From the IMG/VR virus record IMGVR_UViG_3300023301_000098, positions 1 through 24,303 of that record: 24,303 nucleotides of DNA; one strand, written 5' to 3'. How positions within the stretch are numbered: the stretch's first letter is position 1; each line of letters opens with the position of its first letter. The stretch comes from a virus. The position numbers were made by a program, and so were the translations under genes. Positions 7,367 through 15,033 of the stretch are shown in pieces. The notes under the pieces are model-generated. The model was given only the letters and a program-made list of their open reading frames with translations. It was not told where the DNA came from and searched no databases.

Positions 7367-7666
7367 CTATACAAATCTTAAAGTTTCGTATTTGTCAAAA
7401 ATATCCCTAGTGTAACCATGCATTTCAAATTTATGATCCGGTATTTCAGTCCCTACCAGCGATTGAAAAATACGCTCATAGGACCGCAGATTATCGACAC
7501 ACTCACGAAGCACAAAGCCCCATTCCTCCTGCTCTTTATCTGTTTCGTCTGGGCCCCTAGTTTCATAAGATTCAATTAATTGTAGCTCTTTAGATATTGA
7601 GCCATAAGTCATGTCTCTAAGGACTTCGGAATCTTGATAATGCATGTTAGTTAAAGTGATGTTCAT
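7367..7666 (-). CDS. Hypothetical protein co-translated with rep
   Basis: This 99-residue, acidic, helix-rich protein contains LQLIESYETRGPDETDKEQE and a C-terminal DIFDKYETLRFV. The ATG overlaps the TGA of rep (ATGA) with an AAGGA ribosome site inside the end of rep, so it is translated with the initiator. No family recognised. The position suggests a copy-number or replication-accessory role, or an unrelated passenger, but the sequence does not decide. It ends just before the bidirectional terminator. Confidence 0.62.
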   Translation of the reverse strand: MNITLTNMHYQDSEVLRDMTYGSISKELQLIESYETRGPDETDKEQEEWGFVLRECVDNLRSYERIFQSLVGTEIPDHKFEMHGYTRDIFDKYETLRFV

Positions 7667-8634
7667 AATGTTCCTTTGGTTGTGGTGGTGGGTAGCTGGA
7701 AGCCTAATTTCTTAAGATAAGGCAAATAAAAAGCTTGTTTGCTTTCGTCCATTAGCTCAATCTCAATGCGTGACGCAAATTCCTGATAATTTTCGCCTTG
7801 TTTGCCACGGCTTGATAGGTCACTCATGCGTGACAGCTTGGCTGCAAACGTGCCGCGTTGCTTGTCAGTCATCTTCATTGAAGTAATTGCATCAAGGGTG
7901 TCAGAATCCTTATCAACCGCAACAGGGTTTTTAGTTTTTGTCTTAGACTTTTCTGATATCTTAAACTTAAAACCGGTGATCTTACGGCCTTTTTTCACTT
8001 GCTCATAACTGATTTTAAGGTCTGACTTTTCGTTAATTTCATCGACTGCTAATTGTAAGACGCGCTTTTTAAAATCACTCATAACAGTATATTCATCGGC
8101 ATCTAAGCCCATTTGCTGTCTAAAGCACTCCAAATCAAACAATGGGGTATTTTTGGCGGTCTTCCACTGCGTCAGTAATTCGTAAAGCCGGACTGAATAG
8201 CGGCTTTGCAGCATCGCGGTTTGCTCTATCAAGTATTTAGTAAAGAATGTTTCATAGCCATTAATGCGAGTAATTTCATTGACCACGTCATAAGTCAGCA
8301 TAACTTCTATTCCGGCTTCGTCGCCTAAGTACCTGACTCGTTGCACCCAACGCGACTTAACCACCTTATCCTGGTCATCTAAAAACGAGAATCGGCGCTC
8401 AAACAAGTTCTTTTCAGCGGTTAAAATGGCTTCAGTGGCGGTTTGGCGGCTGACATCGAATACCTCAGCATAGCGTGCTGCTGATATAAGTAACGGTTTG
8501 TCAGTCGCTAAGCCGTTGCCCGTTTCTCTTGAATCAACGATTGCCAACTGAATGATGCGGACTTCAGATAATGATAAGTTTTGAATAGCGGTGTTTAAGC
8601 GATTTGACTTGACGACTAAATCTGACTTTTTCAT
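7663..8634 (-). CDS. Rep_3-family plasmid replication initiator
   Basis: This 323-residue protein is of the Rep_3/RepB initiator type. The N-terminus SDLVVKSNRLNTAIQNLSL with 'SEVRIIQLAIV' opens the first winged-helix domain. A signature follows around 'RYAEVFDVSRQTATEAIL' and 'SRWVQRVRYLGDEAGIEV', and then the second winged helix: FFTKYLIEQTAMLQSRYSVR, LYELLTQWK, and 'FKKRVLQLAVDEINEKSDL'. These proteins bind iterons and melt the origin. Tandem iterons lie directly upstream (8713-8800), exactly where they should be. The protein looks intact. This is a plasmid-type replicon inside a phage genome, in addition to the phage primase operon. It heads a two-gene operon. Confidence 0.93.
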   Translation of the reverse strand: MKKSDLVVKSNRLNTAIQNLSLSEVRIIQLAIVDSRETGNGLATDKPLLISAARYAEVFDVSRQTATEAILTAEKNLFERRFSFLDDQDKVVKSRWVQRVRYLGDEAGIEVMLTYDVVNEITRINGYETFFTKYLIEQTAMLQSRYSVRLYELLTQWKTAKNTPLFDLECFRQQMGLDADEYTVMSDFKKRVLQLAVDEINEKSDLKISYEQVKKGRKITGFKFKISEKSKTKTKNPVAVDKDSDTLDAITSMKMTDKQRGTFAAKLSRMSDLSSRGKQGENYQEFASRIEIELMDESKQAFYLPYLKKLGFQLPTTTTKGTL

Positions 8635-8662: not shown

Positions 8663-8712
8663 ATAATAATAACACGCCCTTATATATATGTATAGTTATT
8701 TGTCCCTATAAA

Positions 8713-8800
8713 GCAGGGAAACGTCCTTATATGAGCAGGGAAACGTCCTTATATGAGCAGGGAAACGTCCTTATATGAGCAGGGAAACGTCCTTATATGG
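8713..8800 (+). repeat. Four tandem 22-bp iterons (plasmid origin)
   Basis: Four head-to-tail copies of a 22-bp unit starting GCAGGGAAACGTCC and ending TTATATGA, at 8713-8734, 8735-8756, 8757-8778 and 8779-8800. They are identical except that the last base of the fourth is G. Degenerate half-copies precede them (GTCCCTATA at 8702 and ACGCCCTTATAT at 8674), nearer the rep gene. 22 bp is two helical turns, so the Rep protein would bind one face. These lie about 80-165 bases upstream of the Rep_3 gene and should serve as origin and autoregulatory/incompatibility sites. Confidence 0.92.
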
Positions 8801-9288: not shown

Positions 9289-9768
9289 TCATCTTTCAGG
9301 CCAAGCGTCTTGCATCATTCTGATGTCTGCGACGTGTCCGTCAGATACTCTTGCCATTGCTGTAATCTCAGCGATACACTGCTTTGATACGTCTGCGAGG
9401 GCAACGGCGTACTTAGCGTCGGCAGCGGCAGCGGTTTTGGTATAGGCGGCAGTGCTTTTGTCGATTGTGTCTGACAAGCTGTCAACGATAACGCTATTAG
9501 CGGTATAACTATCGGCCATTTTTTGTTGCGCTTGGGTGTTTTCATTAACAGCATTTTGCCACCTTTGGTTGTTTGCGCGTTCAATTTGCCGTGCCTGGGC
9601 TTGGTATTTGGCTTGCTCAGTGATTTGTTGTATCTTATGCTTGGCATTGATACGATCGATGTTGTTACCGCGCTCATAGTAAAGCGCACCTACTGCAACT
9701 ATTACGATTAGCAGTAGACCTATTATTGACTCGCGCCAATGCTTTATTAATAGTGATAGATAGGTCAT
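9289..9768 (-). CDS. Inner-membrane spanin (Rz-like)
   Basis: This 159-residue protein has an N-terminal transmembrane anchor (IIGLLLIVIVAVGALYYERG, about residues 15-34). A long periplasmic helical domain rich in Gln/Ala/Lys follows (KIQQITEQAKYQAQARQIER ...), with a conserved-like Cys near the end (VSKQCIAEITAMA). This is the i-spanin plan: an inner-membrane anchor whose coiled-coil region binds the outer-membrane partner and fuses the membranes at the end of lysis. Rz1 is nested within it in another frame. It follows the muramidase gene (gap 9 bases), the usual order in a lysis cassette. Confidence 0.82.
   Translation of the reverse strand: MTYLSLLIKHWRESIIGLLLIVIVAVGALYYERGNNIDRINAKHKIQQITEQAKYQAQARQIERANNQRWQNAVNENTQAQQKMADSYTANSVIVDSLSDTIDKSTAAYTKTAAAADAKYAVALADVSKQCIAEITAMARVSDGHVADIRMMQDAWPER
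9315..9554 (-). CDS. Outer-membrane spanin lipoprotein (Rz1-like), nested inside Rz
   Basis: This 79-residue lipoprotein lies in a different frame, wholly inside the i-spanin gene. The start at 9554 (MLLMKTPKRNKK) has AAAGGTGG just upstream; a second ATG at 9545 is possible. The signal peptide (WPIVIPLIALSLTAC) ends in the lipobox LTAC, with Cys27 as the lipidated residue. The mature part is proline-rich (ALPPIPKPLPLPTLSTPLP), as expected of Rz1. An alternative start far upstream in the same frame lacks a signal peptide and is rejected. The pair bridges inner and outer membranes, implying a Gram-negative host. Confidence 0.88.
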   Translation of the reverse strand: MLLMKTPKRNKKWPIVIPLIALSLTACQTQSTKALPPIPKPLPLPTLSTPLPSQTYQSSVSLRLQQWQEYLTDTSQTSE

Positions 9769-10869: not shown

Positions 10870-11526
10870 TTAAAGCGCCAGTGCTTGAGACCACATAGCA
10901 TCTAGCTGCTCGTTAGTTAACCCGAGTAGTGCGCTCATGTAAGAGACACTCGTGCTTGTACGCACAAAAGCTGTCGCTTCGGTGTACTCAATTTCAATAC
11001 GAGCTTTTAATGCTGCGTCTTTAATATTTGATATCGCTGTTTCGATAACAGTAAGCAAGTCGTTCTCCATCAGAATGAGTTTGAACTGTCTACGAGTTAG
11101 CGCTCGTAAGTAACCATCGCTATTAAAAGATAATCCTAGCAACGCTTTTTGTTCACGTCCCCAGGCTCGACACTCTTCAACATAGTTTGCATAAATACTA
11201 AATGATTCTGATGACGAGCTGCGTATCTCTTTAAGCTCGTCAGTGATACTGTATTTCTCTGCAATCATGTCGCGAACGCGTTGGTCTATTAGCCAGACGT
11301 GGCTTGAGTGCTCGCTGAGTGATTTACGTAAATCATCAGTCATGACGACTGTTTCTATTGTGTCGATTATTTCGTCGGGCTGATCGGTTGATAGTTGTAT
11401 ATCGTCAGGCAAACTAACATACGTCACCCCATTGATTGTACATAACTCCGTTGATTCCTCTGGAAAATCCAGCTGCTTGGTGATGTTTCTTGTGATAAAT
11501 TTTTGGTAGCTGACGATATAAGGCAT
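10870..11526 (-). CDS. Tail-associated phage protein downstream of the DGR, function unknown
   Basis: This 218-residue protein starts MPYIVSYQKFITRNITKQLD with GGAG 10 bases before the ATG at 11526; an in-frame ATG at 11544 (MRSIQT) is possible. The C-terminal ~75 residues (LTRRQFKLILMENDLLTVIE ... LLGLTNEQLDAMWSQA) follow the common phage tail pattern of an LTRRQ-type helix, an 'IEIEY.EA' helix and a final 'LGLT..QLD.LW'. Proteins with that ending are usually encoded beside tail fibre genes. The start lies about 113 bases inside the RT gene, an unusually long overlap. It might help assemble or cap the variable tail protein, but this is inference from position. Confidence 0.65.
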   Translation of the reverse strand: MPYIVSYQKFITRNITKQLDFPEESTELCTINGVTYVSLPDDIQLSTDQPDEIIDTIETVVMTDDLRKSLSEHSSHVWLIDQRVRDMIAEKYSITDELKEIRSSSSESFSIYANYVEECRAWGREQKALLGLSFNSDGYLRALTRRQFKLILMENDLLTVIETAISNIKDAALKARIEIEYTEATAFVRTSTSVSYMSALLGLTNEQLDAMWSQALAL

Positions 11527-12481
11527 TGTTTGTATGCTCCGCATAAGTTAGTAAGTGTTGAAGCGAATGAGTTTTTGATGCGTGGGCTAAATGGGATATA
11601 AAAGAGTCGAGCTTATTGTTTCTAACGGCGCGCCTTGATTTATATAAGCTATATTTTCTGATAAATCGTTTTGAGCGCCAGGTTCGGTAGCCGCAAAAAT
11701 TAACGCCTCGTTTTGTGTTAGCGATAGTCGAACGTGAAAGAGTTAGTTTTAGCTCTTCATTCACAAATCTCGTTATCTTTTCGCGATAGTCCAGCGCTTC
11801 AGCGCGGGTTAATCCAAATAATAAAAAGTCATCGACATACCGGCAATATCCGGCGCGGGGTTTCAACTTTCTTGTAATGTAGTGATCAACCGAATTCATA
11901 TAAATCAAGGCGTACATTTGCGATAACAGGTTGCCGATTGGTATCCCTGTCGGTTCTGGGTAGTCGGCAAACATCATCATGAGATCAACCAATTTTTTAT
12001 CTTTAACTTTTTTCTCTAATAATATTTTGAGTATTGGCCGGTCGATACTGTAAAAGAACTTTTTGATATCTAATTGCAAGGTGTAGCTATCCGGTCCCGC
12101 TCTTGTTAGTGCTTTTTGTGCATAATCGGCAGCAGCGTGTGTACCCAGTCCGACACGGCAAGCGAACGATTGGTCTATAAATGTCTTTTCAAATATCGGC
12201 ATCATTTTGTTATATATCGCATATTGAACGACGCAGTCTCTAAATGCGGGTGCGTAAATGTCCCTTATTTTGGGCTCATAAACGACAAACTTAAAATAGG
12301 GTCGGGGCTTATATGTGCCCATCTCTAACTCATCTTGTAATGTTTTTAATTCATAACCTAGTTTTCTCTCAAACTGAAAGCATGCGCGTTTGCCGCCCTT
12401 ACTTTTCTTAGCACATAAAAATGCTTCCCATAAGGACTCCTCTGATATGATATCTTCGTATAAATTCCCAACTCTTTTCAT
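11414..12481 (-). CDS. DGR reverse transcriptase
   Basis: This 355-residue RT has all core motifs. LQLDIKKFFYSID (about 135-147) carries the first catalytic Asp138. GIPIGNLLSQMYA (about 179-191) has the SQ ending (S187-Q188) that separates DGR RTs from the QG of group II intron and retron RTs. CRYVDDFLLFG (213-223) carries Asp217-Asp218, and KRGVNFCGYRTW (about 258-269) follows in the thumb-side motif. The N-terminal part (KPRPYFKFVVYEPKIRDIYA) is the usual RT finger region. It should copy the TR RNA with errors opposite adenines, together with Avd. It lies directly after Avd and TR, and its 3' end overlaps the next gene. The sequence appears intact. Confidence 0.96.
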   Translation of the reverse strand: MKRVGNLYEDIISEESLWEAFLCAKKSKGGKRACFQFERKLGYELKTLQDELEMGTYKPRPYFKFVVYEPKIRDIYAPAFRDCVVQYAIYNKMMPIFEKTFIDQSFACRVGLGTHAAADYAQKALTRAGPDSYTLQLDIKKFFYSIDRPILKILLEKKVKDKKLVDLMMMFADYPEPTGIPIGNLLSQMYALIYMNSVDHYITRKLKPRAGYCRYVDDFLLFGLTRAEALDYREKITRFVNEELKLTLSRSTIANTKRGVNFCGYRTWRSKRFIRKYSLYKSRRAVRNNKLDSFISHLAHASKTHSLQHLLTYAEHTNNALYRQLPKIYHKKHHQAAGFSRGINGVMYNQWGDVC

Positions 12482-12493
12482 AACATCCTTAAA

Positions 12494-12536
12494 AAAGAAA
12501 CGCGCTTGACTTTCGATGGTCTACTAGAAAAGCGCG
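12494..12536 (-). promoter_or_regulatory. Hairpin with T run between TR and RT
   Basis: CGCGCTT (12501-12507) pairs with AAGCGCG (12530-12536) over a 22-nt loop; TTTC/GAAA inside may extend it. On the minus strand the hairpin is followed by GTTTCTTTTTT (12500-12490). It sits after the TR and just before the RT start, so it could set the 3' end of the TR RNA or lower RT expression. The function is inference. Confidence 0.55.
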
Positions 12537-12613
12537 CCTAGTCCGATTTCGCTTAAAGCAGGAAAATGTCTCCCTTGGCACCAGACAATATATCATTGCT
12601 TAAGGTGATGCCG

Positions 12614-12730
12614 AGTCCGCCCGGCAGCCAACGTTGTTGTTGCTGTTAGACCGAGAGTTGTTGCAGTTGACAAACCAGACGCCCGCGTTCGAGCTGTTGT
12701 TCCAGTTGCCGCCCAGAATCGGGCACATTT
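12614..12730 (-). repeat. DGR template repeat (TR)
   Basis: About 115 bases lie between avd and RT and are nearly identical to the end of the target gene at an offset of 559 bases. Across 12617-12728 there are nine mismatches (12635, 12637, 12640, 12647, 12688, 12689, 12698, 12701, 12707), each a T on the plus strand here, hence A in the sense strand. No other base type differs (26 of the 112 positions are A). The matching edge at 12616 and 12729 also differs at an A. In the frame of the target it reads with 11 AAC codons, the classic design for diversification. Its RNA should be the template for RT. Confidence 0.96.
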
Positions 12731-12750
12731 TAAGACATCTCCCTTTAGGG

Positions 12751-13134
12751 TTACGCTTTGGTTGATTTTATCCAGCCGCCGATGATTTTACCGATCTCAT
12801 CGATGTTTACGGATATAGAGAGATATCTTTTAGCATTTAGATTTTGTACTGATATCTTCTCAGTTTTTGGATGACCAAAGTATGACAGCTCGAAAGCTAG
12901 CCTGACCTGCATCCTTAGCTGCTCATGCTTGATGTCTAGATTTATAAGGGTAGTTTTCTTGTGATAGCGCTTTTGTGCTTCGACAATGTAATCGTACATC
13001 TCATATGCGGTTGTCCTTATCCTTAATGCCAAGCCATGCTTTTCATGGCCTGGGAAATGATTGAGATAGACGTTTAACAACTTCATGGTTTGTATAAACT
13101 TTCTATCTAGATTTGATTCGCTGTCTACGGCCAA
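12751..13134 (-). CDS. avd: DGR accessory variability determinant (Avd)
   Basis: This 127-residue basic helical protein sits between the target gene and TR, the usual Avd slot. The pattern FIQTMKLLNVYLNHFPGHEK, then 'LALRIRTTAYEMYDYIVEAQ' and 'LRMQVRLAFELSYFG' fits the S23-like four-helix bundle of Avd, which forms a pentameric barrel that binds RT and TR RNA. The chosen start is the rare codon TTG at 13134, because GAGGG lies 7 bases upstream; a downstream ATG (residue 17) would cut the first helix. It begins 24 bases after the target's stop. Confident from context and fold. Confidence 0.9.
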   Translation of the reverse strand: MAVDSESNLDRKFIQTMKLLNVYLNHFPGHEKHGLALRIRTTAYEMYDYIVEAQKRYHKKTTLINLDIKHEQLRMQVRLAFELSYFGHPKTEKISVQNLNAKRYLSISVNIDEIGKIIGGWIKSTKA

Positions 13135-13158
13135 ACTAATACCCTCGCTATCGCTCAG

Positions 13159-15033
13159 TTATGCAAAATACAAGGCCGCCCGGCAGCCAACGTAGCTGCT
13201 GCTGTGAGACCGAGAGTTGTTGCAGTTGACAAACCAGACGCCCGCGCGCGAGCTGTAGTACCAGTAGCCGCCCAGAATCGGGCACATGTCTTCTACTCTG
13301 TTATCATAAAATCGGTCGTTGCCGAAATCATTGGTGCCACCTGCGCTGCCAAGCAATGGGATGCCTGCGCATGACGCAAGCCAAGCCGCACCGGTGAATT
13401 CACTAGAAAATACTTGCTTGGTGGTCGATCCGACATAAAAACTTCGCTGTTCGCCTGTCAATTCGCCATAGCTTACGCCCAACGACTCATAGTTTTTAAC
13501 CATGCTAGGCATGCCCCACGCATCATCGTCGAGGGTTTTACCGCTGGTTAATGCAGCGGCTTTAGCAGATGGCTTTAAAACGTAGAAATCACCATCGGTT
13601 TGGGTTAAGCCTAAGCATATTTCATACATGTTGCCGTTTAAGTCAGCGACCCCGCTTGACTGTCCATTATGTGTGGTTTTGGCGAATGGCTGGGCTGAAC
13701 CGGTCTTACCTGCGTTTGAGTAACCGGTCGCATCATATAATACACTGGTGTCGTTAACATCACGCAAAGCATTGTTATTGCAGCCTTTTGGAAAGTTGTT
13801 GACGCCCGCCGCATCATACCAAGCGCACGCAGCTGAGCTAGTTGCTGCTTGTGCATGAGCCATACTTAGTAGTGAGAGTGCGCGTTGAATAAACACGGTT
13901 GTCGGGAAAAAATCAGCACCACGGGTTTTTGCCGAGTCAATAGCACTTGCATAGTTATTCCCTGGCGATCCCGTCAAACCGCTGAATGGGTTGTTAGCAC
14001 CGCTTGATGAAAGTGGATTGCCATTCTTGATTGACGATGCGGTGCCGTTGTTATTACTGCACTGATATTTGTCTACAAAAAAACCGTCTTTTAGTTTACC
14101 GTCGTCATAAAAGGCACGGTGTACAGCATAGCCTGCAGCGTTTGCGGCGGCAACATCTACAAAGTCGTTCATTGACTTTACGTCGCACGCATTAGGACCA
14201 TAGTCAGCAAATCGTGGACTGTCTGCATGGCCCCAGCGGTAGTAAAACATCGGCACATAGCACATCACTGAGCCATCACTGTATTGATAATTACCCCAGT
14301 TTTGGTGGCCTTTTATAGCCGTGCCTTGCATTTGCGACATGCCGGGTGGTAGATCGTTAGTAACCCCGACGCCAAAGCTGATTGCGCCAGGCTCTCCAAT
14401 GTCATTGAATGCAGGTGTAACTGTGTCAGTAAATAGTTTTTGTGATACTGCTTGAGTAGTTGATTGCCCGAAAGTATTTGCTAGTTGTACAGCGGGACCT
14501 ACCTCTCCTTTGTCGCCTCGTGGCAAAGTTAAAGCAATAGCGCGGTTTTCGGGTGTACCGGTCAACGCAACACTGGCTGTAGAACCTGCTGCGCCTGTAA
14601 TAACGGTTACGCCTGTAATAGTTCCTGATGCGCCTTTGTCGCCGCGAGGGATACCTAGCGCTATTGTGCGGTTGCCTGGTGTGCCGCCCATAGTTGCAGT
14701 AGAAGCGGTGCCGGGGCTGAGCGTGCTTGCTGCAATACTGCTGATCACTGCCGCAGTGCCCGTATCGCCCTTGTATGCTTTCGACGCCAGTGCGTCACTT
14801 ATCGCTTGGGTAACTGTCTTTGTCTGTATACCATTTACAGTGACTGAGCCTGACTGTTGACTATAAACAAGCTCTAAGCCGTGAAAATAATCCAAATAGT
14901 ATGCAAGTGGCTGGGTAGGGGCCGCAAGGCGTCTGGTAACCATTTCGTTTGCTGGTAGATGAGCAAAGTCATCAATCGTTTTTAAATCTAAAGATCCGTC
15001 AGTTAAATCTTGCAGCGTAATTGGCATTTCCAC
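13159..15033 (-). CDS. DGR target: variable tail protein with C-type-lectin-like end
   Basis: This 624-residue tail protein has its diversified part at the C-terminus. The N-terminus (PITLQDLTDGSLDLKTIDDF, LPANEMVTRRLAAPTQPLAY) is a typical phage tail-fibre attachment region. Residues about 87-180 hold two collagen-like/repeat units ending IPRGDKG and LPRGDKG. Residues ~215-624 resemble the formylglycine-generating-enzyme/CLec fold used by DGR targets (GDGSVMCYVPMFYYRW-type region, DLNGNMYEICLGL, and the final GGYWYYSSRAGVWF). The start codon is GTG at 15033, 6 bases after AGGAG; ATG at 15027 is possible. It lies directly after the tail tip gene, so it probably binds the host receptor. Confidence 0.93.
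   Translation of the reverse strand: MEMPITLQDLTDGSLDLKTIDDFAHLPANEMVTRRLAAPTQPLAYYLDYFHGLELVYSQQSGSVTVNGIQTKTVTQAISDALASKAYKGDTGTAAVISSIAASTLSPGTASTATMGGTPGNRTIALGIPRGDKGASGTITGVTVITGAAGSTASVALTGTPENRAIALTLPRGDKGEVGPAVQLANTFGQSTTQAVSQKLFTDTVTPAFNDIGEPGAISFGVGVTNDLPPGMSQMQGTAIKGHQNWGNYQYSDGSVMCYVPMFYYRWGHADSPRFADYGPNACDVKSMNDFVDVAAANAAGYAVHRAFYDDGKLKDGFFVDKYQCSNNNGTASSIKNGNPLSSSGANNPFSGLTGSPGNNYASAIDSAKTRGADFFPTTVFIQRALSLLSMAHAQAATSSAACAWYDAAGVNNFPKGCNNNALRDVNDTSVLYDATGYSNAGKTGSAQPFAKTTHNGQSSGVADLNGNMYEICLGLTQTDGDFYVLKPSAKAAALTSGKTLDDDAWGMPSMVKNYESLGVSYGELTGEQRSFYVGSTTKQVFSSEFTGAAWLASCAGIPLLGSAGGTNDFGNDRFYDNRVEDMCPILGGYWYYSSRAGVWFVNCNNSRSHSSSYVGCRAALYFA
13173..13288 (-). repeat. DGR variable repeat (VR) at the 3' end of the target gene
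   Basis: This is the copy of the TR that has been diversified. Target residues encoded are about 583-621 (from MCPILGG to the end). Compared with TR, Asn is replaced at 590, 592, 593, 614 (Tyr), 596 (Arg, both first bases changed), 610 (His), and 612, 613 (Ser); all are AAC codons whose A bases changed while the C stayed. AAC at 603, 605 and 606 is unchanged. The 3' end of the repeat, next to the stop codon, is G/C-rich and A-poor (TGCCGGGCGG on the minus strand), as expected of the site where copying starts. Confidence 0.96.

Follow-up and report, generated by a model that had tools for sequence, protein, structure and literature searches.

The sequence examined here is a virus record of 24,303 bases (IMG/VR record IMGVR_UViG_3300023301_000098), hereafter referred to as the window, the minus strand of which contains a cassette with the parts of a diversity-generating retroelement (DGR). 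The cassette consists of a target gene (15033-13159) with a variable repeat (VR) at its 3′ end, followed by a hairpin, the avd gene (13134-12751), a template repeat (TR), a spacer, and a gene for a reverse transcriptase (RT; 12481-11414). The order and orientation of target, avd, TR, and RT on the minus strand had been described as canonical in an earlier note on this DNA and were reproduced here. Two parts were added to its list, the hairpin located after the VR (13143-13158) and a structured RNA between the TR and the RT gene (about 12500-12618).

The TR (12617-12728) and the VR (13176-13287), both on the minus strand, were delimited by a repeat search and a TR/VR alignment, and belong to a 115-base repeat pair at 12614-12728 and 13173-13287 with a start-to-start offset of 559. 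When read on the minus strand, 9 of the 112 core bases differed, corresponding to 9 of the 26 TR adenines and none of the 86 non-adenine positions, and this recount was identical to the pattern reported previously. Over the 115-base repeat, 10 out of 10 changes were located at adenines (hypergeometric p = 1.1e-7 against random placement). The VR terminates in the stretch GGCTGCCGGGCGG, which resembles the GC-rich end of an initiation of mutagenic homing (IMH) site and ends 17 nt ahead of the end of the target gene.

The RT, a protein of 355 amino acids (11414-12481, minus strand), matched RVT_1 (E 1.6e-15) and phrog_1423, annotated as "Reverse transcriptase" (E 1.4e-91). It contains a YVDD motif, and the SQ that the earlier note had recorded in place of QG was seen as IGNLLSQ at the site of the group II QG motif. 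In a maximum-likelihood tree of 61 RTs, it was placed beside the RTs of 3 Psychrobacter DGRs and other DGRs, and all DGR RTs, including that of BPP-1, were separated from the group II RTs with 100/100 support, which answers the phylogenetic check that the note had proposed. The closest solved chain was 8ub7 (E 8.4e-81), the entry for which reads simply "Reverse transcriptase"; we take it to be the BPP-1 DGR RT. The avd gene (12751-13134, minus strand), for accessory variability determinant, has a TTG start codon and encodes a protein of 127 amino acids that matched PF22296, bAvd (E 1.1e-18) and phrog_3206, "Avd protein of DGR" (E 2.4e-20), and scored 75.8 bits against NF033474, slightly below the cut-off of 80. 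The related Avd proteins were 61% to 89% identical to it.

The target gene (13159-15033, minus strand) starts with GTG, with an in-frame ATG at 15027, and encodes a tail-associated protein of 624 amino acids, which had no Pfam match but matched phrog_2889 at its C-terminus (E 8.1e-25). An AlphaFold 2 (AF2) model, for which 32 natural sequences served as input, had predicted local distance difference test (pLDDT) values mostly above 90 from residue 211 to 624, except at about 401-470. The N-terminal part was disordered or of low confidence, and a domain of the type found in TaqVP and C-type lectins (CLec) was predicted at about residues 226-624. The model was closest to TaqVP, 5vf4 (Foldseek E 3.7e-13; VIA Z 29, root-mean-square deviation 3.3 over 297 residues), followed by Mtd, TvpA, and FGE-type folds with Z values of about 11-13, and TaqVP was also retrieved with a sequence profile of the target (E 1.7e-7). 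The CLec/FGE-like C-terminus suggested from the sequence was thus borne out by the predicted structure and its alignments.

The spacer between the TR and the RT gene contains a conserved structured RNA (12501-12618, minus strand) with helices at 12573-12618 and 12501-12537. A structure of 35 pairs was common to 8 relatives, with 98.2% of the cells paired and 13 of the 35 pairs changed on both sides, as compared to 88.8% paired cells in shuffled controls and about 40% with slid partners; none of 500 shuffles reached the observed values. Single-sequence folding of the TR-spacer transcript gave no signal (z -0.12), the decisive evidence being the comparative one, and no Rfam families or tRNAs were found in the window. 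In BPP-1, RT-Avd is recruited and cDNA synthesis is primed by the spacer at the corresponding position, according to a study that refers to earlier work (PMC12875486), and by analogy the spacer in the window probably corresponds to this "sp" RNA of BPP-1 and would have the same function.

To study the variation among relatives, TR and VR were compared at related loci, here given L-numbers (L017 is Pseudomonas phage Bise, L019 is Psychrobacter faecalis DSM 14664, and L020-L022 are Psychrobacter sp. 72-O-c). Across 85 loci including the window, 1384 of 2428 TR adenines (57%) were changed in the VR, as compared to 83 of 7302 other bases (1.1%), and the corresponding values for 61 loci of the BPP-1-like clade were 902/1693 and 101/5754; these pooled counts are somewhat enriched because only pairs with at least 75% of the mismatches at adenines were retained. 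In 15 unfiltered pairs, 220 of 400 adenines and 9 of 1247 other bases were changed, and the equal rate of change at non-adenine positions that the earlier note had named as evidence against its reading was not observed. Furthermore, several groups of contigs (L029-L032, L036/L038/L039, L060-L062, L012/L013, L091/L092, and L094/L096) included pairs that matched without a single mismatch for as many as 500 bp ahead of the VR, for about 420-460 bp in the interval from VR to TR, and for 995 bp past the TR. These pairs nevertheless differed at 6 to 21 of 100 VR sites, with at most one of the differences outside the TR adenines. The identical flanks combined with VR differences at TR adenines indicate that these relatives are active, and they provide the population-level pattern of A-to-N changes limited to TR-adenine positions that had been proposed as a check. 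No further VRs for the tested TR were found in 2 Psychrobacter genomes.

The adenine-restricted TR/VR differences, the canonical order of RT, Avd, TR, and target, the TaqVP-type variable domain, the spacer RNA, and the activity of the relatives therefore identify the element as a DGR of an already known type, and phage DGRs with such a layout are a known class. We estimate a probability of about 0.95 that it is a complete DGR of a temperate tailed phage with its nearest relatives in Psychrobacter (Moraxellaceae) genomes. The interpretation in terms of adenine-specific retrohoming, already put forward from the sequence, is supported by the TR/VR statistics, the RT clade, and the variation in the relatives.

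A Tandem G.A Hairpin at the Target Site

A hairpin with the sequence CTGAGC-GATA-GCGAGG (13143-13158, minus strand) is located immediately 3′ of the VR, between the target stop codon and the avd start codon, and was recognized from its sequence and from its membership in a conserved class. From the GRNA tetraloop outward, its stem consists of 2 Watson-Crick pairs, a tandem A.G/G.A, a T.G, and a C-G pair. Homing in BPP-1 requires a hairpin 3′ of the VR, and the phage DGR hairpins compared in the same study have GC-rich stems of 7-10 bp, a 5′-GRNA loop on the sense strand, and a distance of 4-34 bp from the VR (PMC3240598). The hairpin in the window shares the GRNA tetraloop at 4-34 bp 3′ of the VR, but not the 7-10 bp Watson-Crick GC-rich stem of the hairpin class of Guo et al. 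2011, since the tandem G.A interrupts the stem.

Among 63 unique VR flanks from the clade of the window, 38 had the tandem G.A form, with the consensus YGAGC-GRTA-GCGA, and 13 had a plain stem; the other 12 flanks, as judged by eye, were mostly plain stems as well, except for a single G.T or another mismatch. The controls gave 0.155 (G.A form) and 0.085 (plain stem) for shuffled flanks, and 0 and 1 for the TR flanks. When unique flanks were compared between the clades, the G.A form occurred in 36 of 60 from the clade of the window and was rarer among those of the BPP-1-like clade (5/49), where plain stems predominated. At least 11 interchanges between the 2 forms were counted on the RT tree, and well-supported branches force 6 of them. 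The hairpins in L012, L013, and L014 represent a variant, GCCGTAAC-GAGA-GTGGAGGC, in which G.A, T.G, and A.G are located mid-stem rather than a plain tandem G.A.

The pairs inside the G.A core (GC/GC, GT/AC, AC/GT) and those outside it covaried in 2 subsets, with far lower values in the shuffle and slide controls, whereas the G.A pairs were constant in these sets, which had been selected by their G.A pairs. We also scanned IMG/VR with a 17-mer that contains the G.A core and obtained 80 loci. An Avd match was located downstream in 74 of these, and in 73 it started exactly 13 nt on, a fixed distance that is partly built in because the 17-mer pattern contains the avd ATG. An RT, Avd, or TR/VR was found at 76 of the 80 loci and none of these at the remaining 4, so that the 17-mer can serve as a marker in the search for DGR targets. 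The G.A hairpin was also present in several of the active relatives. A reading of GAGCGATAGCGAG as a mirror repeat or triplex was dropped, since the letters are palindromic only through the tandem G.A.

No mention of the G.A form was found in the searchable text of the DGR literature, which leaves out figures and several key papers, including the 2018 NAR DGR survey, and searches of the literature text with the motif letters yielded no DGR paper.

Strand of Action and Alternative Explanations

A tandem G.A on one strand corresponds to a tandem T.C on the opposite strand. G.A in the context 5′-Py-GA-Pu-3′ is known to form stable sheared pairs, but T.C is not known to do so. In both clades taken together, 41 hairpins contained the tandem G.A and 0 the tandem T.C on the sense strand, and among the plain stems the GRNA loop was located on the sense strand in 54 and on the complement in 0, which argues that the sense strand has been selected to fold. 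As the opposite strand would carry the tandem T.C, a hairpin formed by the sense strand is the most likely functional structure. We therefore suggest, with moderate confidence, that the target-site hairpin of DGRs has a second, widespread form, in which an invariant tandem G.A, probably sheared and always on the sense strand, is embedded in a covarying stem. With the same moderate confidence, these sequence patterns point to selection on a single-stranded hairpin in the sense strand and not on a symmetric cruciform, which would fit invasion of the lagging-strand template by the cDNA.

Several points weigh against this interpretation and against the broader view of the element. The hairpin in the window is among the weaker ones, with -0.8 kcal/mol in folding software. 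An asymmetry of G.T over A.C was not robust, with counts of 44:9 in one model and 17:12 and 9:6 under other scoring or in another clade, and was not used. The hairpin is also located within the avd leader, so that a role in the mRNA is compatible with its position. The tail protein is a presumed receptor-binding protein, and with a single VR copy on one metagenome contig, activity of this particular element is suggested by its active relatives.

An mRNA element for translation of avd, coupled to the target stop codon, would account for the position of the hairpin between the stop and start codons and for the many relatives in which the avd ATG lies within the motif. However, the core was unchanged in the Psychrobacter group despite avd starting further downstream, the hairpins in phage Bise and L007 are plain Watson-Crick stems, in Bise more than 100 nt from avd, and the BPP-1 hairpin is needed for homing even after transfer to another gene (PMC3240598). 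We consider this explanation unlikely, and a Shine-Dalgarno or coding constraint was rejected as the main cause of the motif, since the core does not vary at loci with a more distant avd start.

A symmetric cruciform in double-stranded DNA, in which the G.A pairs are merely tolerated, appears no more probable. The BPP-1 study left the nature of the required structure undecided as "hairpin/cruciform", and T7 endonuclease I cleaves both strands of the hairpin in supercoiled DNA (PMC3240598). Yet the G.A core is invariant while the pairs on both sides covary, and neither the tandem T.C nor the GRNA loop on the complement was observed. Moreover, in E. coli experiments with BPP-1, homing was much more efficient with the sense strand, to which the cDNA is complementary, as the lagging-strand template, and the stem-loop was proposed to keep the sense strand open (PMC12875486). 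The natural series of G.A hairpins is consistent with this lagging-strand-template model and counts against the symmetric cruciform.

That the TR and VR differ through past mutagenic homing in a cassette that is now dead is improbable. The fraction of changed adenines (35%) is below the clade mean of 57% and there is one VR copy, but the reading frames of RT, Avd, and target are uninterrupted, the RT has retained its SQ and YVDD motifs, no non-adenine TR/VR differences have accumulated, the spacer RNA pairs are retained, and relatives are active. A fortuitous repeat next to an RT of another class (retron, DRT defense, or group II) has a negligible probability, since the matches to DRT and group II models were weak, with those in NCBIfam far under the curated cut-offs, and are contradicted by the grouping with DGR RTs and by the avd gene and TR/VR at the locus.

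With a complete DGR that carries a probable sense-strand hairpin as the preferred interpretation, the following series of events can be proposed by analogy with BPP-1. The avd-TR-spacer transcript would bind RT and Avd, and the RT would reverse transcribe the TR, inserting random bases at template adenines. The resulting cDNA has the sequence complementary to the sense strand and would anneal at the IMH end of the VR and then replace the VR, while the hairpin, in this lineage usually composed of 2 loop-adjacent pairs, the invariant tandem G.A, and a covarying outer stem, would keep the sense strand open. With every round, the CLec surface of the tail protein would acquire a different combination of residues, mostly derived from Asn, and with it a new binding specificity. 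From the fold, the position among the tail genes, and the BPP-1 precedent we infer that the phage alters its receptor-binding face in this manner. The naturally occurring hairpins that fold well on one strand only offer a direct way to test whether the required structure is a cruciform, a single-strand hairpin, or an RNA.

The Carrier Phage and Related Systems

The contig contains genes for CI/Cro/CII-like regulators, a primase, a muramidase, a spanin, a tape measure protein, and tail proteins, a gene content that suggests that the carrier is a temperate siphophage. An open reading frame (ORF) at 9315-9689 with a lipoprotein-like LTACQTQ motif is nested out of frame inside the spanin-like gene at 9289-9768, both on the minus strand, as in an Rz/Rz1-like pair. 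Another ORF (10870-11544, minus strand) of 224 amino acids and unassigned function begins within the RT gene in another frame and overlaps its 3′ end by 131 bp. It was retained in the Psychrobacter relatives, with 69% to 71% identity across all 224 amino acids in L002, L006, L019, and L022, and has a C-terminus common to phrog_14311/6034. It is at most a candidate component of the DGR.

A gene for a RepM/Rep_3 plasmid replication initiator was identified at 7663-8634 on the minus strand (NF038290, 345.8 bits; cut-off 250), with about 60% identity to RepM of Psychrobacter and Moraxella plasmids, and 4 exact 22-bp direct repeats (iterons) adjoin it at 8712-8799. Because of RepM and the iterons, the contig may be a phage-plasmid, and the window is accordingly a candidate DGR-carrying phage-plasmid, as judged from a 24 kb fragment. 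None of the DGR relatives tested, including the L019-L022 genomes, yielded a RepM match, no RepM relatives were found in IMG/VR, and no close DNA relative of the window was found in phage or plasmid records.

The closest RTs in genomes were those of Psychrobacter faecalis and Psychrobacter sp. 72-O-c, with 78% to 83% identity. In the latter genome, L020 and L021 (NZ_CAJHBI010000012.1) were identical over 21,002 bases, with 0 mismatches and identical VRs, and lay on the same contig at a spacing of 34,795 bp, an arrangement like that of a tandem lysogen or concatemer, while L022 (NZ_CAJHBI010000009.1) represents a third, different DGR phage. The range of phages that host this known mutator is thereby extended by a Psychrobacter (Moraxellaceae) lineage; no text that treats DGRs and Psychrobacter jointly was found in the literature search.

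The DGRs in P. faecalis DSM 14664 and Psychrobacter sp. 72-O-c (L019-L022) share with the window the order of the components and the G.A hairpin class, and their target C-termini are 66% to 69% identical to that in the window. The DGR in Pseudomonas phage Bise (OR683401) likewise has an avd gene, a TR/VR pair with 9 changes, all at adenines, and a tail target, and its RT is 55.5% identical to that in the window. However, Bise is a contractile-tail phage, the distance between its VR and TR is longer (714), and its hairpin, GGGTGC-GGTA-GCACCC, is fully Watson-Crick. TaqVP, the DGR variable protein of Thermus aquaticus, is only about 17% to 23% identical in sequence to the target, which differs by an extra N-terminal part of about 200 residues that presumably serves for virion attachment.

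The BPP-1 DGR (mtd-avd-TR-brt) resembles the DGR in the window in its gene order, adenine differences between TR and VR, Avd, RT with an SQ motif, GC-rich IMH end, TR-RT spacer, GRNA-loop hairpin 3′ of the VR, and tail-protein target, and the TR/VR offsets are 559 in the window and 556 in BPP-1. The RTs of the 2 systems are about 35% identical, the target is TaqVP-like by fold score in the window and Mtd-like in BPP-1, and the hairpin has an 8-bp GC-rich Watson-Crick stem in BPP-1, whereas the one in the window has a tandem G.A core.

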